Assembly: GCF_002929845.1 (NCBI RefSeq)
Contig: NZ_PJJS01000048.1
Location: 1 to 64,000, forward strand
DNA length: 64,000 nt
Source of the DNA: Cryobacterium sp. M96
GTDB lineage: Bacteria > Actinomycetota > Actinomycetes > Actinomycetales > Microbacteriaceae
Direction of reading: 5' to 3'
The translations under genes and the position numbers were made by a program. A model generated the notes under the pieces. The model saw only the letters and a list, made by a program, of their open reading frames with translations, was not told the DNA's origin and ran no database searches. Shown here piece by piece: positions 25,855 to 37,370 of the stretch. The number at the start of each line of letters is the position of its first letter. Position 1 is the first letter of the stretch.

Positions 25855-26895
25855 ATGTCGTTTTCGACCCTCTTCGACGCGCCTGCGATCGAGCCGCCAA
25901 CGGTCGATCCGGCGAACCCGGACTCGTCCCCGCGCCGCTTACTGACAGCGCGTCCCTCGGTCTCGGACTCGGTGTTCCGTTCGGTGGCCTTCTTCGCCGG
26001 CTGCATCACCGTGGCGATCATGCTCGCCGTGGGCGTGTTCCTGGCGTTGCGTGCCTCGGAGGCCCTCGGCGTCGCCGGGTTCAGCTTTCTGGTCGAGCAG
26101 GACTGGTCGCCGGAGTCGCAGAAATTCGGCATCGCATCCGTCTTGTTCGGCACCATCACGATCGCGGTGATCGCGATGTGCGTCGCCGTGCCGCTCGCCC
26201 TCGGCACGGCCCTGCTCATCTCCGAGGTCGCCCAGGGCCGGATGCGCTCCACGCTCGTCACGCTCGTCGACCTGATGGCCGCCGTGCCGAGCGTGGTCTT
26301 CGGCCTCTGGGGCGTCTTCTTCCTGCAGGCCAACGTGATCCCGGTCGCCACCTGGATCTCCAGCTACTTCGGTTGGATCCCGCTGTTCCGGGTGGCGGAC
26401 GCCAGTGGGCAAGCGCTCACCGAGGCCAGCGCGTTCACCTCCTCGGCGTTCATCGCCGGCATTGTCGTCGGCCTCATGGTGGTCCCGACCCAGACGTCGG
26501 TCATGCGCGAGGCCTTCTCCCAGGCGCCGATCGGCGAGCGCGAGGCCGCCTTCGCGCTCGGGTCGACGCGCTGGGGCATGATCCGTGCGGTCGTGCTGCC
26601 CTTCGGTCGTGGCGGCATCATCGGCGGCACCATGCTCGGCCTCGGCCGTGCTCTCGGTGAGACCATCGCCGTCTACATGATCATTTCGCCGATCTTCACG
26701 ATCAACTGGGAGGTGCTGAAGACCGGCACCAACTCCGTCTCCGCGCTCATCGCCCTCCGCTACGGCGAATCCAGCTCATTCGGCCTCTCCGCGCTGATGG
26801 CAGCCGGACTCGTACTGTTCCTGATCACCCTCGTGATCAACTTCACGGCCTCGTCGATCGTGGCACGGTCTCGATCCGGGGCGGAGAGCGACTGA
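25855..26895 (+). CDS. pstC: Phosphate ABC transporter permease PstC
   Basis: A 346-residue membrane protein with a roughly 40-residue cytosolic lead and six predicted transmembrane helices. The EAFSQAPIGEREAAFALGSTRWGM stretch is the coupling helix, and LGLGRALGETIAVYMIIS is typical of PstC. It forms the phosphate channel with PstA. The ATG at 25855 has AAGGA at 25845-25849; an earlier in-frame ATG lacks a ribosome site. Codon 29 is TTA. Its stop overlaps the pstA ATG by one base. Confidence 0.93.
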   Translation: MSFSTLFDAPAIEPPTVDPANPDSSPRRLLTARPSVSDSVFRSVAFFAGCITVAIMLAVGVFLALRASEALGVAGFSFLVEQDWSPESQKFGIASVLFGTITIAVIAMCVAVPLALGTALLISEVAQGRMRSTLVTLVDLMAAVPSVVFGLWGVFFLQANVIPVATWISSYFGWIPLFRVADASGQALTEASAFTSSAFIAGIVVGLMVVPTQTSVMREAFSQAPIGEREAAFALGSTRWGMIRAVVLPFGRGGIIGGTMLGLGRALGETIAVYMIISPIFTINWEVLKTGTNSVSALIALRYGESSSFGLSALMAAGLVLFLITLVINFTASSIVARSRSGAESD

Positions 26896-28196
26896 TGACG
26901 ATCACGCACGCACCCAACATCACGCACGCCGCGACCAGCACCTGCACGACGAACGACACCCACACCACGACGATCCCGGCCTACGACGGCACCCCGATCG
27001 GACCGCGACGCCGGGTGCGCGGCGCCCGGCTCGACGACCGGTTCAACGTTCTCGGTGCCGCCGCAGCCGGAATCGCCGTCGCGGTGCTCCTCTTCGGCTG
27101 GATCACTCCGCTTTCCGGCGGCGTGGGCTGGGCGCTCGTGGCGTATCTGGCGTTCCTTGGCTTCTACGCCCTGCTCGTAAGCTTCACGAGCGACGCGCAG
27201 GAGGTCAAGGACCGCGTGATGGCGGTGCTGCTATCAAGCGCCGGTGTGGTGCTCTTCGGCGCCCTGGTCTTCGTCGTGGCGTTCACTCTGATACGCGGGC
27301 AGGAAGCCCTGCCTCATCTCAACTTCTTCATCCAGAGCATGGAATTGGCCGGACCCCTCGACGGCCTCGACCTGGGCGGTATCGTGCACGCGATCCTGGG
27401 CACGCTCATGCAGATTTCGATGGCGCTGGCGGTCACGATTCCGCTCGGCATCACGACCGCCCTGTTCCTGAACGAGGTCGGTGGCCGATTCGCGAGGTTC
27501 GTGCGCACCATTTCGGATGCGATGACCGCGCTGCCGTCCATCGTGGCCGGCCTGTTCGTCTACTCGGCGATCATCGTGCTGATCACGCACCAGCGGTCAG
27601 GCTTCGCCGCGGCCATGGCGATCACCGTCATGATGCTCCCGATCGTCATCCGGGCCTCGGATATCGTGATTCGCCTGGTCGCCGGCAACCTGCGGGAGGC
27701 CGCCTATGCCCTCGGTTCCACCCGCTGGGCCACCATCTGGTATGTCGTGCTGCCGACCGCCCGGCCCGGACTGGCAACGGCCGTGATCCTGGGCACAGCC
27801 CGCGGCATCGGCGAGACCAGCCCAGTGTTGCTCACCTCGGGTGTCACCGCGGTGACCAACCTGAACCCCTTCGCCGGCCCGATGATCTCCCTCCCGCTGC
27901 AGGTCTTCGACTTCGTCAAGTCTCCTGAGCCCACCATGATCGCCCGAGGTTTCGGCACGGCCGCCATCCTGATCCTCCTGGTGCTCACCCTCTTCGCCCT
28001 TGCTCGACTCATTGGCGGCACCGGTCCCGGCCAGTTGTCCCGTCGGCGGCGACTGCGCGTCGACGCCGCATCGGAGCGGGACCTGCAACGGATGAGCGTA
28101 CGGGGTGACCTCGGTCCGGGGATCACCGGAACCAATTCAATGCTCCGGCCGACCAGTTCACCTACCGACCTCACCACGAAGGAGACGTCCTCGTGA
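26895..28196 (+). CDS. pstA: Phosphate ABC transporter permease PstA
   Basis: A 433-residue permease, longer than the usual 280-300. The extra length is an N-terminal Thr-rich lead, two added hydrophobic segments before the core, and a hydrophilic tail of about 50 residues after the last helix. The core has NLREAAYALGSTRWAT (coupling helix) and GTARGIGETSPVLLTSG. It pairs with PstC. The stop overlaps the GTG of the next gene, so pstC, pstA and the tethered PstS gene are translationally coupled. Confidence 0.92.
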   Translation: MTITHAPNITHAATSTCTTNDTHTTTIPAYDGTPIGPRRRVRGARLDDRFNVLGAAAAGIAVAVLLFGWITPLSGGVGWALVAYLAFLGFYALLVSFTSDAQEVKDRVMAVLLSSAGVVLFGALVFVVAFTLIRGQEALPHLNFFIQSMELAGPLDGLDLGGIVHAILGTLMQISMALAVTIPLGITTALFLNEVGGRFARFVRTISDAMTALPSIVAGLFVYSAIIVLITHQRSGFAAAMAITVMMLPIVIRASDIVIRLVAGNLREAAYALGSTRWATIWYVVLPTARPGLATAVILGTARGIGETSPVLLTSGVTAVTNLNPFAGPMISLPLQVFDFVKSPEPTMIARGFGTAAILILLVLTLFALARLIGGTGPGQLSRRRRLRVDAASERDLQRMSVRGDLGPGITGTNSMLRPTSSPTDLTTKETSS

Positions 28197-29872
28197 CGCC
28201 GCAAACCCGACAGATTCGCACAGTCCGAGCCTTATTCGCGCTCGTCGTTGTGCTGCTGAGCGTTTTCACGGCGCCAGCTGCCCAGGCAGCGAGTTACGAC
28301 CTAATCACCGGTACCGGCTCGACCTGGTCGCAGAACGCCCTGGACCAGTGGCGCAAGAATGTTGCCAATAACTACGCGATGACGGTGAACTACTCCGGAG
28401 TCGGCTCATCGGCCGGGCGCCGTGACTTCGTCGCGGGCAACGTGGACTTCGCCGTCAGCGAGATCCCGTTCCAGACCGCCCCGGAGGACGGTTCGGCCCC
28501 TGAGGTGCCTGCCCGCGGTTACGCCTACATGCCCATCGTGGCTGGTGGCACGTCCTTCATGTACAACCTGAAAATCGGCGGCAAGCGAGTCACAAACCTT
28601 CGGCTCAGCGGAGAGGTCATCACCAAGATCTTCACCGGCGCCATCACGAAGTGGAACGACCCTGCCATCGCGACCGACAACCCCGGGCTGGCCATGCCCG
28701 ACAAGGGTATCGTGCCCGTCGTTCGCTCGGACGGCTCCGGCTCCACGGCGCAATTCACACTCTGGATGTCCAAGCAGCACCCGGCCCTCTGGAATTCCTT
28801 CTGCACGAAGGTCGGCCGGTCTGCCCCCTGCGGCCTCACCTCGCAGTTCCCCACCTACGGCAACGCCAAGGCGCAAAGCGGATCCTCAGGCGTCGCCGGC
28901 TACGTGAGCCAGGACTACGGCGAGGGTGCGATCACCTACGTGGAGTACTCCTACGCCAAGAACTCCGGTTTCCCCGTCGCCAAGGTGCTCAACGCCGCGG
29001 GTTACTACACGGAACCCACGGCCAATTCCGTGGCCGTCGCACTGCTGAAGGCATCCATCAACACCACACCCGGGCCTACCTACCTCACCCAGATCCTGGA
29101 CGGCGTGTACAACAACGCGGACCCCCGCACCTACCCACTCGCGAGCTACTCCTACATGATCGTGCCGACCGAAGTCGGCGGCGTCTTCACCGCCAAAAAG
29201 GGCCTGACCCTCGGTACCTTCGCACATTACATGCTCTGCGAGGGGCAGCAGCAGGCCGAAGCCCTGGGCTACTCGCCTCTGCCGATGAACCTTGTGCTGG
29301 CCGGCTTCGACCAGATCAAGCGAGTGCCAGGCGCCGATGCCAGCGGCGTCGACATCAACAAATGCAACAACCCGACATTCAAACCAGGTGACTCCCCGTC
29401 AAGCAACCTGCTGGCCACCACGGCTCTCCAGCCGGCCGCCTGCGACAAGATGGGGGCCAACCAGTGCACCACCGGCACGGCCGGGGCGCTGGCAGACACG
29501 GCCGTGTCCGGTAGCGGATCGGGTGGTGGCGCGGCCGGCTCAGCCGCCGCGACAACTGCCGGGGGAACGGCTTCGCCGGCAGGGTCCGGGGGAACAGGTG
29601 CGGTGGCGCAAGGCGGAACGGATGCGGCATCAGGCGCGGTGGCCTCGCCCGTGTACGACGAGAACGGCGCCCTCGTGTCCACGGTCGGCGCCACGGCAAC
29701 CGGCGTGGTCGGCACGGCCATCGCCGCACCGTTCACGTTGGCGGAAGGCGGGTGGGGCGCCCAGCAATCGATCATGCTCGTCGCCGGGCTTCTCCTGCTG
29801 GCCGCAGCCGTGCTGCCGCCGGTGCTCGCCGGCCGGTTCAAACCGCGTGTCGCGAAGGCAGGAACCAAGTGA
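28193..29872 (+). CDS. Membrane-tethered PstS-like phosphate-binding protein
   Basis: A 559-residue exported protein. The signal peptide ends at AAQA near residue 32. The binding domain (about 34-400) shows ITGTGSTWSQNALDQW, FAVSEIPF, IFTGAITKWNDPAI and the anion-site RSDGSGSTAQFTLW, all PstS hallmarks. A Gly/Ser/Ala linker (about 430-520) follows, then a transmembrane helix (MLVAGLLLLAAAVLPPVLAG) and a basic tail. There is no lipobox. Canonical Gram-positive PstS proteins are lipoproteins, so C-terminal tethering on a flexible stalk is unusual. GTG start overlaps pstA; codon 14 is TTA. The stop overlaps the next GTG. Confidence 0.9.
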   Translation: MTPQTRQIRTVRALFALVVVLLSVFTAPAAQAASYDLITGTGSTWSQNALDQWRKNVANNYAMTVNYSGVGSSAGRRDFVAGNVDFAVSEIPFQTAPEDGSAPEVPARGYAYMPIVAGGTSFMYNLKIGGKRVTNLRLSGEVITKIFTGAITKWNDPAIATDNPGLAMPDKGIVPVVRSDGSGSTAQFTLWMSKQHPALWNSFCTKVGRSAPCGLTSQFPTYGNAKAQSGSSGVAGYVSQDYGEGAITYVEYSYAKNSGFPVAKVLNAAGYYTEPTANSVAVALLKASINTTPGPTYLTQILDGVYNNADPRTYPLASYSYMIVPTEVGGVFTAKKGLTLGTFAHYMLCEGQQQAEALGYSPLPMNLVLAGFDQIKRVPGADASGVDINKCNNPTFKPGDSPSSNLLATTALQPAACDKMGANQCTTGTAGALADTAVSGSGSGGGAAGSAAATTAGGTASPAGSGGTGAVAQGGTDAASGAVASPVYDENGALVSTVGATATGVVGTAIAAPFTLAEGGWGAQQSIMLVAGLLLLAAAVLPPVLAGRFKPRVAKAGTK

Positions 29873-32535
29873 AGCGCGTCACGTTCGCCCCGAAGAACGC
29901 GCTCTGGGCCCGCGCCGGCGCCAGCGGAATCGTCGTCGGTCTGCTGGTCGGCGTGGGTGTCGCCGCGCTCGGCTCCCTGGTTCCCTCTGCAGCATCCGCT
30001 GACACGTCGACCGCGGTCACGGTCGCGTCGAGGGGCTACGACCCGGACGTCGCCACCGCCCCCTTCCCCGACCTCAAGGTCACCGTGTCCCAAACCGAGG
30101 ACCTCGTTTCCCAGGGGATCGTCGTCAACTGGAGCGGAGGCAAGAAGTCCGAGCGGCCCGATGGCAGTTCGGGAGGTCAGGACTTCCTCCAGATCGCGCA
30201 GTGCTGGGGAGACGACCCGACGGATTCCAGCCGCCCGGATCGCACGACCTGCCAGTACGGCGGCTTCCCTGGCAAGGCCGCGTCCACCCGCGACACCGCG
30301 GTCAGCCAGGACCAGGTGGCCCGGCAGGACGCGCAGTACACATCTCCCGCCAACGGGTTCACCATTCCGGCGTTCACCGCGATTCCCTACCGCGCATCCA
30401 CGGGCGGTTCGATCTCGTCGGTGTTCGCCGACTCGGCCAACGTTCTCACGCATCATGTCGTGGATCCCCTGACGGGCCTCGTGCAGAAGGCCACCGGTTC
30501 GCCGTCCGACACCGGGGTCACATTGCCCGACGGCATCTCCGGCGTTGACCTGGCCACCAACGAGTTTTACACCCAGTACACGACGAATGAGGTGCCCTGG
30601 GCCGGATCGAGCGACAGTGGCGACGGCTCCGTCAAATTCGAGGTGCAGACCGCGATGCAGTCCCCGGGCCTGGGCTGTGGCACACCCGTGACCGCCGCGG
30701 ACGGCTCTATCTCCGGAAAATCCTGCTGGCTCGTGGTCATCCCGCGCGGAAAAAGCGACGCGGGGGAGTCCTACATCACCAAGTCCGGCCTGCTGTGGGA
30801 CTCCTGGAAGCACAGTGTGGCCGTCAAGCTGGACTTCAAGCCCATCGGCCAGCGCTGCGCCATCGGCTCGGCCGAGAAGCAGCTCTCCGGAAGCGAACTG
30901 GTCGCCGCGGCGATCGGGTCATGGCAACCCAAAGTGTGCACCGGTGCGGCGGGTTCCTCTTTCGCGCTCAGCATCGGCAACGAGGAGGACGCGCTTGCCG
31001 CGGCGAGCCTCACGACACCCAGCCCGCTGGCTCTCACCTCACGTCCCCTGCAAACCGACAGGGTCGATCCCGTCGCATACGCACCGATCGCCCTCAGCGG
31101 CGTCGCAGTTTCGTTCTCCATCGACCGCCGGGTGAAACCGGTTGGCGCAGTTCCCCAGGAATACAAGGCCAGGAATACCGAGGCGTTCACGTCACTGAAC
31201 CTCACGCCTCGCCTGGTCGCCAAGCTCCTCACTAATTCGTATCTCGACTCACTGCCTTCCGGGGCGCCGGCCACGTCGGACTCCCTCAAGTTCTTCGGCT
31301 ACACCGACTCCGCGAACCCTGGCGCGAACGCGCGCAACCTCATGGTCGACCCCGATTTTCTGGCGGTCAACGACGATGAGTGGAAGTACCAGGACCTGAC
31401 CGGGCCGTCCCTGGGAGACATGCTCCTTCCCTCCGGGAGATCCGACGAGGCCCAGCAACTGTGGCGTTACGTCCTTTCCGACCCCGCCGCCGTCGATTTC
31501 CTGAACGGAACGCCCGACACGTGGGGAATGAAAGTCAACCCCTGGTCGTCCACCAATGCCGCTGTCAACCCGTCCGGGACGGCCATGACGATTCCCCGCA
31601 CGAATTTTCCGAAGGCTGATCCACTGGAGCGGCCCGCGGCCGCTGCCGGCACCGGAACAACGGCAGTGAGCCTGGTCACCTGGCGCCCCTACACCAGCGA
31701 CTTCGAGAGCGGCGCGTATCTCACCCTGCGCGGCGACGGGCAGGAGCTCGGCGACTGGAACCCCACCAGCGTCCCGCCGAAGTTCGGCAAGAGCGTGCGC
31801 AGCCTGGTGGGCAACCAGCGCGTGCTTGGCGTCACCACCGCAGCCGCGGCCGCTCGCTACCAAACGGTGACGGCGTCATTGCAGAACTCAGCGGGCTCGT
31901 TCGTGGCGCCATCGCCGGAGTCCATGCTCGCGGCCTCCGCCGCCATGGTGCCGACCAGCACAAACCCCAAGGTGCTCGAATACGACCCGGCGAACCCAAG
32001 CGCCAAGGCTGCCGCCACAGCGTACCCAATGACGATGCCGGTCTATGCCGCGTTGAATCCGCTGCAAACGGATGCCGCCCAGAGGGCCATCTACGCCAAC
32101 CTGATCCGGTACGCGGTGGTGGCAGGCCAGGTACCTGGGACGGAGATCGGGCAGCTGCCGCGCGGCTACACCCCGCTCCCGAAGAGCTGGGTGGACCAGG
32201 CGCTCGCCGCCGCGACCGCAATCGAACAGGGCGGCAGCCCGGTCGTAGCAATGGCCATGCCCGAGACTGCCCCTGCGGTCGACAGGCCGGCCTATGTGCC
32301 GACCCCGTCAACCTACGGTCCGGCAGAGTTCCAGGCTCAAGCCGCGCCGGTGGTGGCCGACGCCGCGGTCGACCCGGCCGCGACGGGCACCGTCGTCGAC
32401 CCCTTGGTGGCGAGACCGACGCCCGCGGACCCGGTCATGGGACCGGTACGCGCGGCGGTGCCGGCCGGGCTGCTCTCCGGCCTGCTCGCCGCCTGCGGCG
32501 TCCCCTTTATTTCGCGCGTTCGGAGACGATCCTGA
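29869..32535 (+). CDS. Giant membrane-anchored PstS-like surface protein
   Basis: An 888-residue exported protein of no firmly recognised family. The signal peptide ends near residue 44 (SAASA). Scattered PstS-like elements suggest an expanded type-2 binding fold: YAPIALSGVAVSFSID, LNLTPRLVAKLLTNSYLDSL, and near the C-terminus MTMPVYAALNPLQ plus RGYTPLPKSWVDQALAAA. It ends in a hydrophobic helix (PAGLLSGLLAACGVPFISRV) and Arg tail. Several Cys residues (QCWGD, RTTCQYGG, GLGCGTP, KSCWLVV) may form disulfides outside the cell. The GTG at 29869 overlaps the preceding stop. The function is inferred from context only: phosphate or phospho-compound capture. Confidence 0.72.
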   Translation: MKRVTFAPKNALWARAGASGIVVGLLVGVGVAALGSLVPSAASADTSTAVTVASRGYDPDVATAPFPDLKVTVSQTEDLVSQGIVVNWSGGKKSERPDGSSGGQDFLQIAQCWGDDPTDSSRPDRTTCQYGGFPGKAASTRDTAVSQDQVARQDAQYTSPANGFTIPAFTAIPYRASTGGSISSVFADSANVLTHHVVDPLTGLVQKATGSPSDTGVTLPDGISGVDLATNEFYTQYTTNEVPWAGSSDSGDGSVKFEVQTAMQSPGLGCGTPVTAADGSISGKSCWLVVIPRGKSDAGESYITKSGLLWDSWKHSVAVKLDFKPIGQRCAIGSAEKQLSGSELVAAAIGSWQPKVCTGAAGSSFALSIGNEEDALAAASLTTPSPLALTSRPLQTDRVDPVAYAPIALSGVAVSFSIDRRVKPVGAVPQEYKARNTEAFTSLNLTPRLVAKLLTNSYLDSLPSGAPATSDSLKFFGYTDSANPGANARNLMVDPDFLAVNDDEWKYQDLTGPSLGDMLLPSGRSDEAQQLWRYVLSDPAAVDFLNGTPDTWGMKVNPWSSTNAAVNPSGTAMTIPRTNFPKADPLERPAAAAGTGTTAVSLVTWRPYTSDFESGAYLTLRGDGQELGDWNPTSVPPKFGKSVRSLVGNQRVLGVTTAAAAARYQTVTASLQNSAGSFVAPSPESMLAASAAMVPTSTNPKVLEYDPANPSAKAAATAYPMTMPVYAALNPLQTDAAQRAIYANLIRYAVVAGQVPGTEIGQLPRGYTPLPKSWVDQALAAATAIEQGGSPVVAMAMPETAPAVDRPAYVPTPSTYGPAEFQAQAAPVVADAAVDPAATGTVVDPLVARPTPADPVMGPVRAAVPAGLLSGLLAACGVPFISRVRRRS

Positions 32536-32645
32536 TGCGCGCCCAACGTGACGCTTCGCGCGGGTTCCCCGCTTCGGACCGTAGCGCTGAGACAAGAGGG
32601 ACCCATCCGGATCCGTCTCCTGCATCACCCACGAAAGGCACCCCA

Positions 32646-33737
32646 GTGAACACCAAGAAGGCTCTTGCGCTCTGCGCAACTGTCGGCGTGGCCATCTCCG
32701 GCCTTGTCATCGTCAGCCCGGCTAACGCCGAGCCCGTCTCGAACAGCTACTCCATCGTCGGCTCCGACACCCTCGAGGACGTCGTCAGCGCCCTGGCCAA
32801 CGGTTCGGGCCTTTCGGGCGCGTCGGTTCGTTCGACAGCCAACGGAAACAGCATCGGCTCGTTCGACGCGACCGGCACCCCGTTCATCACGACGAAGTCC
32901 TCCGGTGTGCGTTTCGGTCGCCCGAATGGCTCAAGCGACGGGCGCACGGCCCTTCTCCGTTCCATTGACGGCGCCCCGTACACGTCCGGAACCGTCGGCG
33001 CGCCCGCGGGCGTCGTCATCACGGGGCAGATCGACATCGCCCGTTCGTCCGGATCAGGCACGGTCGACCCGGCAGGTAGCCTGATCCAGGTGCCTTTCGG
33101 TCGCGACGCGATCGCCTACGCGTATGACAGCGCTTCGACGGCAGCCGGCATCGGTACCATCGACACCGCGACCATGACGAGTCTTTACACCTGCAGCGTC
33201 ACCACCCTCGGCGGAGTGAAGGTCACACCGGTCATCCCGCAGGCCGGTTCCGGAACGCGCAAGGACTTCATGTCCAAAATCGGCGTCACGGATTCGACCC
33301 TGGGTTCGTGTGTCACCGTGGGTCAGGAGCACGACGCCTCTGACCTGGGTATCAACACTGTCGCGCCTATGTCGGTGTCCCGCTGGGTCGCCATGAACAC
33401 TGGTGCGAGCTTCCCCAAGAAGAAGGACACCACGGTCCTGGGCTCCCTGGTCGCAGGCACCACCCCCGTGACAGGCACCGGCACCTCGATGGCCCCGGTG
33501 GCCGCCTACTACGCCGACTCTCGTTGGGGACGCGACACGTACCTCGTTGTTCAGTACGCACGAGTTGACCCGACGAATGCCGCATATGACTCGACTCTGG
33601 CCGACCTGCTCGATCCGACAAAAAGCGCCAGCCTGACGAACTCCCAGACGACTTTTGCCGCCAAAGCCGGTTCGTTGAAGAAAAAATTCGGCATTCTCGC
33701 ACCCTCGACCACCACCGCCGTTCGAATCTCCAAGTGA
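32646..33737 (+). CDS. Secreted PstS-like periplasmic-binding-fold protein
   Basis: A 363-residue exported protein. The signal peptide ends at PANA near residue 28, with no lipobox and no C-terminal anchor. Binding-fold motifs are YSIVGSDTLEDVVSALANG at the start and an anion-loop-like QAGSGTRKDFMSKIGV in the second lobe. The GTG at 32646 has AAAGG 7-8 bases upstream; a frame opening at 32535 would add 37 residues without a signal peptide. Unanchored, it could be released or bound to its neighbours. This is the third PstS-like protein in the island. Ligand unknown, phosphate likely. Confidence 0.78.
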   Translation: MNTKKALALCATVGVAISGLVIVSPANAEPVSNSYSIVGSDTLEDVVSALANGSGLSGASVRSTANGNSIGSFDATGTPFITTKSSGVRFGRPNGSSDGRTALLRSIDGAPYTSGTVGAPAGVVITGQIDIARSSGSGTVDPAGSLIQVPFGRDAIAYAYDSASTAAGIGTIDTATMTSLYTCSVTTLGGVKVTPVIPQAGSGTRKDFMSKIGVTDSTLGSCVTVGQEHDASDLGINTVAPMSVSRWVAMNTGASFPKKKDTTVLGSLVAGTTPVTGTGTSMAPVAAYYADSRWGRDTYLVVQYARVDPTNAAYDSTLADLLDPTKSASLTNSQTTFAAKAGSLKKKFGILAPSTTTAVRISK

Positions 33738-33766: not shown

Positions 33767-34639
33767 ATGAAGATCAACAAGAAGTCGTGTCTCGTCGCCG
33801 CCGGCGTCGTTTCGCTCGCTCTGGTCGCCGGAGCCACGGCCGCGGCGAGTGCCGCGACAGCCGCAACGCAGACGAATGGTTCTGCCGCTCCCGTCTACAT
33901 GTACGACACGGATGCCGTCCAGAAGTCGGACGGCTACGTCTGGGGCTGGAAGGAGGACCTCTTCGGCTCCTCCACTCAGGGCGACATCAACGGCGAGTTC
34001 ACCTGCCCGGCGAACTCAACGAATATCTTCGCCTTCCTGGCCACCCCCGGAACCGAAAACACCGTCCTCACCTGGAAGGCGTACGCGCCCCTCGCGTTCA
34101 ACGGAGCGACACGCAACGTGCTCAACCCGACCCTCGCGCCGATCTCGCTCATCAATAACTCCCAGACTGCGGCCAGGAACGCCGGCGGCAACTACAGCCT
34201 GGGCCTCGCGTGCACGATGAACTCTGGTGTCACAGTGACCGCCGCCTTCTACCGTACGATCAGCGTCGTTCCGGTCACCGGCGCCTTCACGTTCCTGCCG
34301 CAGGCCGATGTGCCGGTGACGCCGACGCCGACTCCGACTCCGACTCCGACGCCGACCGCGACTTCGACGCCGACCGCGACGCCGACGCCGACTGTGACGC
34401 CGACGCCGACCGCGACGCCGGCTGCGGTTCCTGCTGTGACGCCGGGCCTCAACTCCGGCTCGTCGGGCAACCCGGCGTCTGGCTCGTCAGAGCGCGTTGC
34501 CGCAGCGACGAAGGCCGACAAGGAGCTCGCGTCGACCGGAACCGCCAACACCCTTCCGCTGCTGGCTTCGGGCATGCTCGCCCTCGCGGCCGGGGCCGGC
34601 GTGATTATCGCGCGTCGCTTCCGCCGCGCTGACAAGTAG
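33767..34639 (+). CDS. LASTG cell-wall-sorted surface protein with Thr/Pro stalk
   Basis: A 290-residue protein with a signal peptide of about 30 residues and a unique ectodomain (about 35-185) with two Cys. A stalk of TPTP repeats (about 185-225) is encoded by a hexamer-like CCGACG/CCGACT repeat. The sorting signal is LASTG at 254-258, followed by a hydrophobic helix and RRFRR tail. LAXTG is the motif recognised by class E sortases. The stalk is a plausible O-mannosylation target. The ectodomain matches no family I recognise. A strong terminator follows the stop, closing the first transcription unit of the island. Confidence 0.8.
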   Translation: MKINKKSCLVAAGVVSLALVAGATAAASAATAATQTNGSAAPVYMYDTDAVQKSDGYVWGWKEDLFGSSTQGDINGEFTCPANSTNIFAFLATPGTENTVLTWKAYAPLAFNGATRNVLNPTLAPISLINNSQTAARNAGGNYSLGLACTMNSGVTVTAAFYRTISVVPVTGAFTFLPQADVPVTPTPTPTPTPTPTATSTPTATPTPTVTPTPTATPAAVPAVTPGLNSGSSGNPASGSSERVAAATKADKELASTGTANTLPLLASGMLALAAGAGVIIARRFRRADK

Positions 34640-34807: not shown

Positions 34808-35443
34808 TTGATTGTGCTCACATCCACTGCCCCGCCCCGCCTGACGGCCGTGACCCTCATCGCAATGTCCTTGATTTGCGGGCTTGCCGGGCTCACCGCG
34901 ACCCCCGCGAGCGCCGAGGCTGCCACGAATGGGCCTAGCGGTATGAGCGGGGAGCCGACGAACATCCACGATTTCTTCTATGTCAGCGGGCTCACCGTGC
35001 TACCCGCTCCGCAGATCGGGCCGGAAGGTGGGGACCTGACCCTGGAGTTCACGATGAAGAACGTCAGCACCGCCCCGATCACCTCGAGCCTCCGGTTCTG
35101 GCTCGACAATGCGATCAACCTGCCCGTCCAGACGCTCGACACGGTCGAGGTTGCCAACCTCGCACCGGGGGAGACACGCACCATGAGGGCAACCTTTGAA
35201 GATGTCGGCCAGTGGACCTTCTTCCGAGGCCACGTGACGATGACTCCGCCCGTGGACATCGCTGGCACGGCTCTCTGGTCGCTGACCCGCGACTCGTTCA
35301 CGCTCATCCTGCCGTGGTTCCTCACGGCGATGCTCGTGCTCCTGGCAGCGCTCGTCCTGGCGGTGCGCCAGTTGCTTCGGCTCCGCCGGTCGCGACGCCC
35401 ACTGCCCGACCTCGCACTCGGCTACGGGCCGGTCACATCGTGA
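34808..35443 (+). CDS. Small exported protein with one C-terminal membrane anchor
   Basis: About 211 residues. A signal peptide ends near PASAEA. A single beta-rich ectodomain of about 120 residues follows (LTLEFTMKNVSTAPITSSL, LAPGETRTMRATF), reminiscent of CARDB or DUF916-type Ig folds. Then come a transmembrane helix (LILPWFLTAMLVLLAALVLA) and an Arg-rich cytosolic tail. The start is uncertain: TTG at 34808 (GGA 10 bases upstream) or GTG at 34814. Earlier in-frame starts fall inside the terminator hairpin. Its stop overlaps the GTG of the pseudosortase gene, so the two are co-translated and perhaps partners. Confidence 0.7.
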   Translation: MIVLTSTAPPRLTAVTLIAMSLICGLAGLTATPASAEAATNGPSGMSGEPTNIHDFFYVSGLTVLPAPQIGPEGGDLTLEFTMKNVSTAPITSSLRFWLDNAINLPVQTLDTVEVANLAPGETRTMRATFEDVGQWTFFRGHVTMTPPVDIAGTALWSLTRDSFTLILPWFLTAMLVLLAALVLAVRQLLRLRRSRRPLPDLALGYGPVTS

Positions 35444-36372
35444 CGGTTGCCACAACGCTCCGGCGACCGAAGCTGCCAACGCCGCCGCGGCGCATGCCCG
35501 TGCCCCCGCGCCCATTCGTGGTGCTGAGCGCACGCGAGCAGGCCATCCGCACCACGCTCACGATCGTTGCCGTGCTCATCTTCGGCTTTCTCGCCAACCT
35601 CACGATTTTCGGCCAAGTGCAGCACTTCGTCTCGCAGCAGCAGCTGACGAACTCGCTGCGAGCAGAGCTCGCTCAGGGCACGGCCCCGGTCAGCGAGGGC
35701 ACCGTGGAGCAGGTTCTGCTCGAGGCCGGAGCCCCAGTGGCGCTGATCGACATTCCCTCGATCGGGGTGCACGAGGTGGTCGTCGAAGGAACCGACTCCG
35801 GTACCCTGCGTGCCGGACCGGGCCACCGCCGCGATACCGTGTTGCCGGGCCAGGCCGGCTACAGCGTCATCATGGGCCGCGCCGCTGCCTACGGCGGCCC
35901 TTTCGCCCGACTGCAGGAGTTACGACCGGGGCAGCAGTTCACCGTCATCACCGGGCAGGGCCGTCAGGAATTCTCCGTTCTCGGCGTTCGGTACGCGGGT
36001 GACCCCATGCCGGCTCCCCTCGGCGCGGGGAAGAGCCGCCTGATCCTCGTGACGGCTCGCGGCCCCGCGTTTGTGCCGAGCGGGATCGCCCGGGTGGATG
36101 CTGAGCTCGTTTCGGAAACGAAACCGGCGGGCGTCCGAGCGACCACATTCGTGACCCTGCCTGCCGTCGACCGGGAGCTCGCCACTGACACCAGAACGGT
36201 GTGGGCGCTTGTGTTCGCCTTGCAGTTCCTGCTGCTGGTCGAGCTTGCCGCCGTGTGGGCCTATCGACGCGTCGGCCTCCGCAAAACCTGGACGGTTTTC
36301 CTCCCCGTCGTCACCGTGGGCGGCCTGTTCGTGGCCGACCAGGTGGTGCGCCTGCTTCCGAACCTGCTGTAG
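35440..36372 (+). CDS. Class E sortase homologue lacking catalytic His and Cys (pseudosortase)
   Basis: A 310-residue membrane protein. One helix lies near residues 33-55, then a sortase fold, then two further helices at the C-terminus, which ordinary class E sortases lack. The fold is clear: IDIPSIGVHEVVVEGT, LRAGPGHRRDTVLPGQAGY, YGGPFARLQELRPGQ. Where active enzymes read GHR before the YGxPF stretch, this one reads MGRAAAYGGPF, so the His position is Arg147 (35878-35880, CGC). Where they read TLxTC, it reads LILVTARG, so the Cys position is Ala206 (36055-36057, GCT). An Arg fitting the third catalytic residue remains (Arg218). It cannot act as a transpeptidase by the known mechanism. It may bind sorting signals or organise the complex. 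Confidence 0.85.
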   Translation: MTVATTLRRPKLPTPPRRMPVPPRPFVVLSAREQAIRTTLTIVAVLIFGFLANLTIFGQVQHFVSQQQLTNSLRAELAQGTAPVSEGTVEQVLLEAGAPVALIDIPSIGVHEVVVEGTDSGTLRAGPGHRRDTVLPGQAGYSVIMGRAAAYGGPFARLQELRPGQQFTVITGQGRQEFSVLGVRYAGDPMPAPLGAGKSRLILVTARGPAFVPSGIARVDAELVSETKPAGVRATTFVTLPAVDRELATDTRTVWALVFALQFLLLVELAAVWAYRRVGLRKTWTVFLPVVTVGGLFVADQVVRLLPNLL

Positions 36373-36377
36373 AAACG

Positions 36378-37370
<993 letters not shown>

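Follow-up and report, generated by a model that had tools for sequence, protein, structure and literature searches.

A sortase-fold protein without catalytic residues in a Pst-like importer cluster of Cryobacterium sp. M96 and its relatives

What does a sortase homologue do when it lacks the catalytic His and Cys and stands among genes for a phosphate-type importer? We considered this question for the product of positions 35440-36372, here called the pseudo-sortase, on the forward strand of a 64,000 nt-long stretch of Cryobacterium sp. M96 (contig NZ_PJJS01000048.1, positions 1 to 64,000; this whole stretch is the window below). The answer that we consider fairly probable is that it is a non-catalytic, sortase-fold membrane subunit of a second Pst-like ATP-binding cassette (ABC) importer, in which it would dock proteins of the PstS2 type. 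A dead sortase kept in phosphate-importer-like clusters of many Actinomycetota genomes points to the reuse of an enzyme fold as a part of a transporter that has no catalytic role. G, C and L numbers are our handles for genomes, contigs and loci or the sequences in them.

The reading frame is open from the GTG start at 35440 to the TAG stop at 36372 (310 amino acids), and a 4-nt GTGA overlap joins its start codon (35440-35442) to the stop codon (35441-35443) of the gene upstream, IgTM, so an earlier note on this DNA was right in describing the frame as intact and coupled to its neighbour. An opposite-strand reading of the same positions was rejected, since a stop is present in the minus frame shown. 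The product matches the sortase profile PF04203 with 46.2 bits (cut-off 26.6) over profile positions 1-83 of 125, that is, ending ahead of the Cys motif. Its top NCBIfam model is that of class E sortases, NF033747, at 55.8 bits, far below the cut-off of 160; by these scores it passes for a member of the sortase superfamily and falls short of class E. The AlphaFold model, obtained with 64 aligned sequences (predicted local distance difference test, pLDDT, 82.8; predicted template modelling score 0.73), is a sortase beta-barrel. In a fold search of this model the closest solved structure was the class D sortase 4d70 (Z 18.7, root-mean-square deviation (rmsd) 2.9, 153 aligned residues), class C sortases reached Z 17.7 (6ixz) and class E sortases Z 14.0 (9j0t) and 13.9 (5cuw), the matches spanning model residues 65-227. 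The sortase fold that the earlier note had proposed is thus borne out. The two C-terminal transmembrane (TM) helices that it took for additions do exist in the model, but the same pair is found in seven of nine active relatives (L286, L293, L294, L296-L299) by a crude hydropathy count, which gives just one C-terminal TM segment for the other two, L288 and L292.

The active site was compared in a MAFFT alignment with 79 rows of degenerate and 52 of active-like sequences (the latter 50 distinct after trimming), the residues facing the old active site being assigned from sequence columns alone; totals were taken over 134 distinct degenerate sequences, window included. The window protein reads GRA at 146-148 and LVTA at 203-206, and the assignment of Arg147 to the site of the catalytic His and of Ala206 to that of the Cys stands. 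The His column is H in 52/52 active-like rows and R in 79/79 degenerate rows, and over the 134 sequences the site is R in 133 and K in one. Of the four profile alignments printed with PDB entries, three (5uus, 5go5, 5go6) place Arg147 beneath the catalytic His, while with 4d70 the His falls in a one-residue insertion and Arg147 lies beneath the Arg that follows it. The Cys site is uncertain by one residue: the MAFFT column leads to Arg207 and the strand register of the TLxTC motif to Ala206, the latter being favoured by an intermediate sequence, L236 (LILTTSNP, against LILVTARGP in the window). That column is C in all 52 active-like rows and in none of the 79 degenerate rows, and Cys is absent from both positions throughout the 134 sequences, whose residues at the Cys site are A (111), S (16), G (4), M, V and T (one each). 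As the earlier note remarked, no other Cys is at hand: the window protein holds none at all, no replacement was found at positions 198-212 of the 134 sequences (letters in insertion columns were not seen), and the scattered Cys of related sequences lie, judged by position, in N-terminal or TM parts.

The third catalytic residue is gone as well, and here the earlier note, which had the Arg of the triad as the only one kept, was mistaken. In the Arg column 51 of 52 active-like rows have R; 77 of 79 degenerate rows have V, I, T or L there, and the window has Ile216. R is retained in 12 of the 134 sequences, all 12 among the 22 deep ones discussed below. The nearby Arg218, two residues past Ile216, varies (R 47, Y 44, H 6, W 2 and L 1 in 100 rows, with the window sequence counted twice). 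In place of the triad the window protein therefore has R147, A206 (or R207) and I216, and not one of the 134 degenerate sequences holds the catalytic His or Cys at its site.

Recent decay, or a pseudogene, was rejected as an explanation: the frames are intact, the 134 degenerate sequences are distinct, and selection is purifying. The ratios of non-synonymous to synonymous substitution (dN/dS, NG86 method) between the window pseudo-sortase and six Cryobacterium loci are 0.229, 0.130, 0.134, 0.116, 0.101 and 0.162; three of the six underlying dS values are above 1 and thus rough. In the same pairs the neighbouring genes are looser (0.34-0.53 for IgTM, 0.30-0.45 for the LASTG-bearing surface protein; the PstC rows of L110 and L114, which are cross-matches to PstA, were left out). 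Hence a pseudoenzyme under selection is strongly supported, as the earlier note had supposed.

An orthologue (E < 1e-60) is present in 16 of 60 related genomes, with two copies in G003. Weaker matches (E 6e-12 to 9.5e-6) in 16 further genomes were rejected as orthologues, the 14 that were read all keeping His and Cys. At family level 78 of 398 genomes, and 33 of 85 genera, match at 1e-20. At order level 61 of 198 genomes match at 1e-10; 18 of them, at E 1.9e-67 or better, are orthologues, and of the remaining 43 weaker matches 12 were read and 12 keep His and Cys. At phylum level 4 of 149 genomes, one of them that of the window itself, match at 1e-30. The 80 best among 439 relatives are, going by the records' own names, mostly Microbacteriaceae with some Propionibacteriaceae, and the nearest among them is Cryobacterium cheniae at 94% (own-genome records were possibly left out). 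A record titled Stenotrophomonas maltophilia (L173, JACEFY010000284.1) holds an actinobacterial pseudo-sortase with pstB and is probably contamination. G003, a genome of the Cryobacterium group, carries two pseudo-sortase Pst clusters (G003:C47 and G003:C83), both of a 40-43% type that is also present in another family (G057), which hints at transfer.

All 32 degenerate rows of an 82-row tree fall on the same side of one branch (support 100/100), and in a 66-row tree with the deep sequences 39 of 39 degenerate rows are split from 27 active rows (branch 100/90); they make up a clade provided that the root does not fall on their side of the branch. Its nearest active row, L202, is weakly resolved (83/73). 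The early branches of the degenerate group (L289, L290 on a long branch, L236 and L291) are graded, with His replaced by Arg, Cys often by Ser, and the catalytic Arg often retained. L236 is such an intermediate, reading AGRRTTYG and ILTTSNPEYLASERLVV, with Arg for His, Ser for Cys and the Arg in place. These sequences would fit an order of loss in which the His went first, then the Cys, and then the Arg together with a substrate loop. An origin within housekeeping class E sortases was not supported; each of the two trees keeps the rows of these sortases as a group of their own. Three further sortase-like sequences (L251, L260, L265) have GFR or GYR instead of GHR, TTT instead of TTC, and a longer C-terminal part; they are possibly a second, independent loss of catalysis.

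The second line of evidence comes from the genes around the pseudo-sortase (Table 1). PstS, PstC, PstA and PstB stand together as in a Pst operon, PstS being recognised by PF12849, PstB by the PstB model, and PstC and PstA by reading and by homologues in the same order. The chosen ATG of pstB lies 5 nt past the stop codon of the pseudo-sortase. The window PstB falls short of the PstB equivalog cut-off, and another PstB over the cut-off is encoded in the same genome (G000:C26:50769-51533). A stronger PstB is in fact found elsewhere in each of the 16 pseudo-sortase genomes, therefore the pseudo-sortase cluster is a second, Pst-like system; in three relatives (G003:C83, G014, G018) the PstB of the operon is itself over the cut-off.

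Table 1. Coordinates (window positions) of the genes of the Pst-like cluster and of the codons at the former catalytic sites.
Feature	Position	Strand	Remarks
PstC-like permease	25855..26895 (listed open reading frame from 25789)	+	Named by reading the sequence, without a family search
PstA-like permease	26895..28196	+	Named by reading the sequence, without a family search
PstS1, phosphate-type substrate-binding protein	28193..29872	+	PF12849, 7.7e-44; C-terminal hydrophobic segment by eye
PstS2-like large protein, 888 amino acids	29869..32535	+	Partial match to the PstS model TIGR00975, 33.3 bits of 205, and to no Pfam family; hydrophobic C-terminal segment by eye
PstS3-like protein	32535..33737	+	No Pfam match of its own; the L115 homologue matches PBP_like_2, 3e-6
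Surface protein with LASTG sorting signal	33767..34639	+	Homologue of the WxL-like surface protein at other loci
IgTM, beta-sandwich and C-terminal helix	34814..35443	+	Chosen start GTG 34814; 4-nt overlap with the pseudo-sortase
Pseudo-sortase	35440..36372	+	Helix 31-79 including TM; barrel 99-223; helices 251-278 and 280-309 as a TM hairpin (AlphaFold, Pfam, fold search)
Arg147 codon, catalytic His position	35878..35880	+	Alignment columns and PDB profile alignments
Codons of Ala206, the favoured Cys site, and of Arg207, the other register	36055..36060	+	Alignment; no Cys in 134 sequences
Ile216 codon, catalytic Arg position	36085..36087	+	Alignment column
PstB-like ATPase with N-terminal extension	36378..37370	+	324.3 bits against the TIGR00972 cut-off of 343.2; start chosen

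The usual gene order at related loci is pstC, pstA, pstS1, pstS2, pstS3, WxL-like surface protein, WxLIP-like protein, IgTM, pseudo-sortase, pstB. A pstB was shown in 96 of 97 loci (some genomes counted twice by two routes), the exception being a short contig, and it is downstream on the same strand in 91/91 non-redundant loci with more than 2.5 kb downstream, at 830-8281 nt (median 1064). Among 84 non-duplicate loci with 6.5 kb upstream, which were selected by similarity to the query and therefore lean to close kin, PstS3 is present in 83, PstS2 in 81, a WxL- or LASTG-like protein in 73 and IgTM in 73. A gene with the WxLIP domain part occurs in 76 of the 84 and is absent from the window, L061, L107, L134, L150, L163, L217 and L218; if the domain part is not demanded the count is 78, inflated by C-terminal-part matches to IgTM, a protein that weakly resembles the C-terminal part of a WxLIP-like protein and in a fold search found generic beta-sandwich domains only (best E 1.3e-4). 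Precisely the 16 of 60 genomes that hold the pseudo-sortase also hold PstS2. As side observations, the LASTG protein (33767-34639) contains a Thr-Pro repeat tract, its homologues in L115, L124 and L165 lack a sorting signal and have a WxL-like stretch at their end, and the window PstB carries an N-terminal extension of about 75-135 amino acids ahead of the ATPase domain, depending on the start.

The association reaches the deep relatives. When G627 served as the starting point of a search, 109 of 198 genomes matched, and the 30 loci read comprised 21 degenerate ones and 9 with His and Cys; flanks were examined for 19 of the 21 (17 loci plus G627 and G700; L271 and L272 were left out). PstS2- and/or PstS3-like tblastn matches were found in 18 of these 19, the last (L316) being a fusion. 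Counting only the 17, such matches occur in 16 and PstC, PstA or PstB in the stretch in 14; L306, a 5.2 kb contig, has the PstS3 match only. No Pst match was seen near any of the nine active relatives (three lie on short contigs, 5-7 kb), and the stretches L320, L321 and L325 resemble, by eye, the surroundings of cytochrome-c-maturation genes. Gene order in the deep loci is rearranged: PstS2, sortase, PstC, PstA, PstB, PstS1 in L239 (G613), where the PstS2 frame (stop 9024) overlaps the sortase frame (start 9021) by 4 nt; sortase, PstS2, PstS3, divergent from PstC-PstA-PstB-PstS1, in L238 (G627); and PstC, PstA, PstS1, PstS2, sortase, PstB, PstS3, WxL, WxLIP in L237 (G700). In L217 and L218 the order is PstC-A-S1-S2-S3-sortase-PstB, and neither WxL nor WxLIP gave a match. 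By these orders PstS2 and the Pst genes seem to make up the core, with the WxL genes as accessories. Two deep degenerate sortases, L289 (L312:2996-4663) and L236 (L239:9021-10157), have an additional N-terminal region preceding the TM helix, which in L236 looks coiled-coil-like by eye. The PstS2-like protein L239:7195-9021 carries a neocarzinostatin-type domain (PF00960, 1.2e-7; residues 42-126) ahead of its PBP domain.

The fusion in L316 (G784) is a single open reading frame of 974 amino acids; tblastn of the Pst proteins gave no match on this stretch, and the fusion was found there instead. Its residues 694-972 are similar to the L239 sortase (E 3.7e-31) and degenerate, and this sortase part is the only one detected by Pfam. 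A PstS2 profile of 699 positions matches the N-terminal part with its positions 26-677 (62.0 bits, E 2.1e-18 at Z = 1000, bias 33.5); matches to single sequences are weak (PstS2 of L238, E 0.003; of L239, 0.010), with none to the window PstS1 at E 10. The window PstS1 scores higher with the same profile (236.6 bits), thus the safe name of the fused part is PstS-like.

Taken as a mechanism, an active sortase of the same three-TM layout would have been captured once by a Pst-like cluster; the catalytic His would then have become Arg, after which the Cys and the Arg would have been lost and the substrate loop shortened. The resulting subunit, anchored in the membrane, would neither cut nor attach proteins, and would hold PstS2, and with it PstS3, beside the PstC-PstA permease; where WxL- and WxLIP-like surface proteins are present, docking may extend to them. 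The proposal of the earlier note that the protein scaffolds Pst surface proteins survives in spirit, in view of the linkage, the co-occurrence with PstS2 and the one PstS-like/sortase fusion. More tentatively, the clusters could represent a widespread type of Pst-like importer with a sortase-fold subunit, in which a captured sortase, its His fixed as a basic residue, became a docking or anion-sensing part in complex with PstS2.

Several points weigh against this reading. Docking on PstS2 and the permease is inferred from gene evidence, the models being those of monomers. The degenerate sequences form one group of the tree, therefore the Pst association is probably a single evolutionary event and not many. 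Phosphate is at most a putative cargo: the window PstB is below the PstB cut-off, and a simple scan for a PHO-box consensus upstream of pstC found none. The fusion comes from one genome, with a large bias in its PstS-like match and a higher score of PstS1. Both the deep and the close loci were found with degenerate queries, which favour degenerate relatives, and the 30 deep loci read stand for 109 matching genomes.

The alternative that survives best, though we regard it as unlikely, is that the former active site became an arginine-lined anion site. Its pocket would take up phosphate, wall teichoic acid or the head group of a phospholipid, and the protein would sense or channel an anion for the Pst-like pump. 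This alternative draws on the basic residue at the His site in all 134 degenerate sequences, on Arg at positions 131 (125 sequences), 200 (122), 130 (110) and 207 (95), and on the Pst-like neighbours; gaining and keeping one basic residue exceeds what mere decay would give. Against it, the arginines other than 147 are less conserved in the 22 deep sequences, where 14 have Arg at position 131 and 10 at 200, but just 2 at 130 and no more than 2 at 207, and the shared pocket is itself judged from the sequence.

A receptor that binds LPxTG or LAxTG tails and holds surface proteins uncut, the other role offered in the earlier note, is improbable, even if the sortase fold is retained and a LASTG protein is encoded two genes upstream in the window. 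In SrtE1 of Streptomyces coelicolor, as described in PMC5148588, His251 lies just past strand b4, b7 ends with Cys320 and b8 contains Arg329, Tyr229 in the b3/b4 loop is proposed to read LAxTG, and the b6/b7 loop has 26 residues. The corresponding position 130 is Tyr in 46 of 52 active-like rows, Arg in the window, and Arg in 110 and Tyr in one of the 134 degenerate sequences. The span 176-203 (b6/b7) has 27-28 residues in 79/79 degenerate rows and never fewer than 29 in the active-like ones (36 residues in 41 rows, 29-33 in 9, 41 in one and 48 in one); as nine active-like rows also have only 29-33, a short loop alone is not proof of inactivity. LPxTG or LAxTG signals were found within 9 kb upstream in just 8 of the 84 close loci.

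It is very improbable that the protein is a regulatory partner of an active housekeeping sortase, the way some pseudoenzymes act with their active kin. Suitable partners exist: in a search of 22 genomes, all 16 with the pseudo-sortase have at least one further PF04203 match, and the Cryobacterium sp. M96 genome (G000) has three, one with intact class E motifs (C27), one that keeps GHV and ITCGG (C29) and a third at C20. In the loci examined the linkage is to Pst genes, however, with no active sortase gene noticed alongside, though no dedicated search of all flanks was made, and G036 keeps the pseudo-sortase though its sole other match is weak (28.1 bits, cut-off 26.6). That it is an enzyme with another chemistry on new residues is hardly credible, for despite the polar residues invariant in the 64-row alignment (H129, R131, R147, R184, R200, D220) the old site, mostly Ala, has no conserved nucleophile.

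The protein differs in several ways from the systems that it resembles. Class D sortases such as that of Clostridium perfringens (4d70), and class C sortases, give the top structural scores and are catalytic transpeptidases, unlike the pseudo-sortase. Class E sortases (S. coelicolor SrtE1, 5cuw; S. avermitilis SrtE, 5go5; NF033747) share the fold (5cuw with rmsd 2.5 over 129 aligned residues), similar GxGH and PGQxG motifs and the best NCBIfam model, whereas the pseudo-sortase lacks the triad and the LAxTG Tyr and has a shorter b6/b7 span; SrtE recognises LAETG according to PMC10924467. Closest in layout are the seven active three-TM sortases named above, with an N-terminal TM helix, a barrel, two C-terminal TM helices by the same crude count and a C-terminus with a similar LP motif; they differ in their intact GHRTT and Cys motifs and in having no Pst match nearby. 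Pst phosphate importers share PstC-, PstA-, PstB- and PstS1-like genes in one operon, while the window cluster adds two more PstS-like proteins and the sortase-fold protein and has a PstB under the equivalog cut-off.

WxL/WxLIP surface clusters are mainly known from Firmicutes, which hold more than 91% of WxL sequences, in clusters with a DUF916 domain (PMC9772566). Accessory WxL-like and WxLIP-like genes occur in most close loci (WxL in L115, PF06030 4.5e-9, over cut-off; in L165 weakly, PF13731 0.003, below cut-off), but here in Actinomycetota and inside a Pst-like cluster, and no gene for the WxLIP peptidoglycan-binding domain was found in the window locus. A catalytic parallel is offered by one case, the anchored repeat-type ABC transporter of L214 (L214:2535-16603, G593:C22; TIGR03770 471.6 bits, TIGR03771 334.6 bits), which has an ABC transporter, two WxL-like proteins by eye, a WxLIP-like protein, and the sortase L202 with C-terminal hydrophobic segments. 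That cluster encodes an LPNTG protein, its sortase is intact and its permease resembles metal transporters, while in the Pst clusters catalysis is gone and the signal is rare. No other full-length match to L202 was found in 13 genomes near G593.

If the more tentative reading, a type of importer with a sortase-fold subunit, is true, neither a family of sortase pseudoenzymes nor a transporter subunit with the sortase fold would have been known before, as far as the literature searched shows; we found there neither a paper on such a pseudoenzyme family nor anything relevant tying a sortase to Pst. Sortase homologues are usually annotated as transpeptidases, and here a group under selection is not. 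The graded series, from active sortases outside Pst clusters, through forms with Arg and Ser in which the catalytic Arg is often kept, to forms with Arg and Ala that have lost it inside Pst clusters, lets the origin of a pseudoenzyme be followed in genome sequences. It also leads one to expect that a Pst-type pump with three PstS-like proteins, present in genomes that hold a canonical PstB alongside, has a component so far unrecognised.

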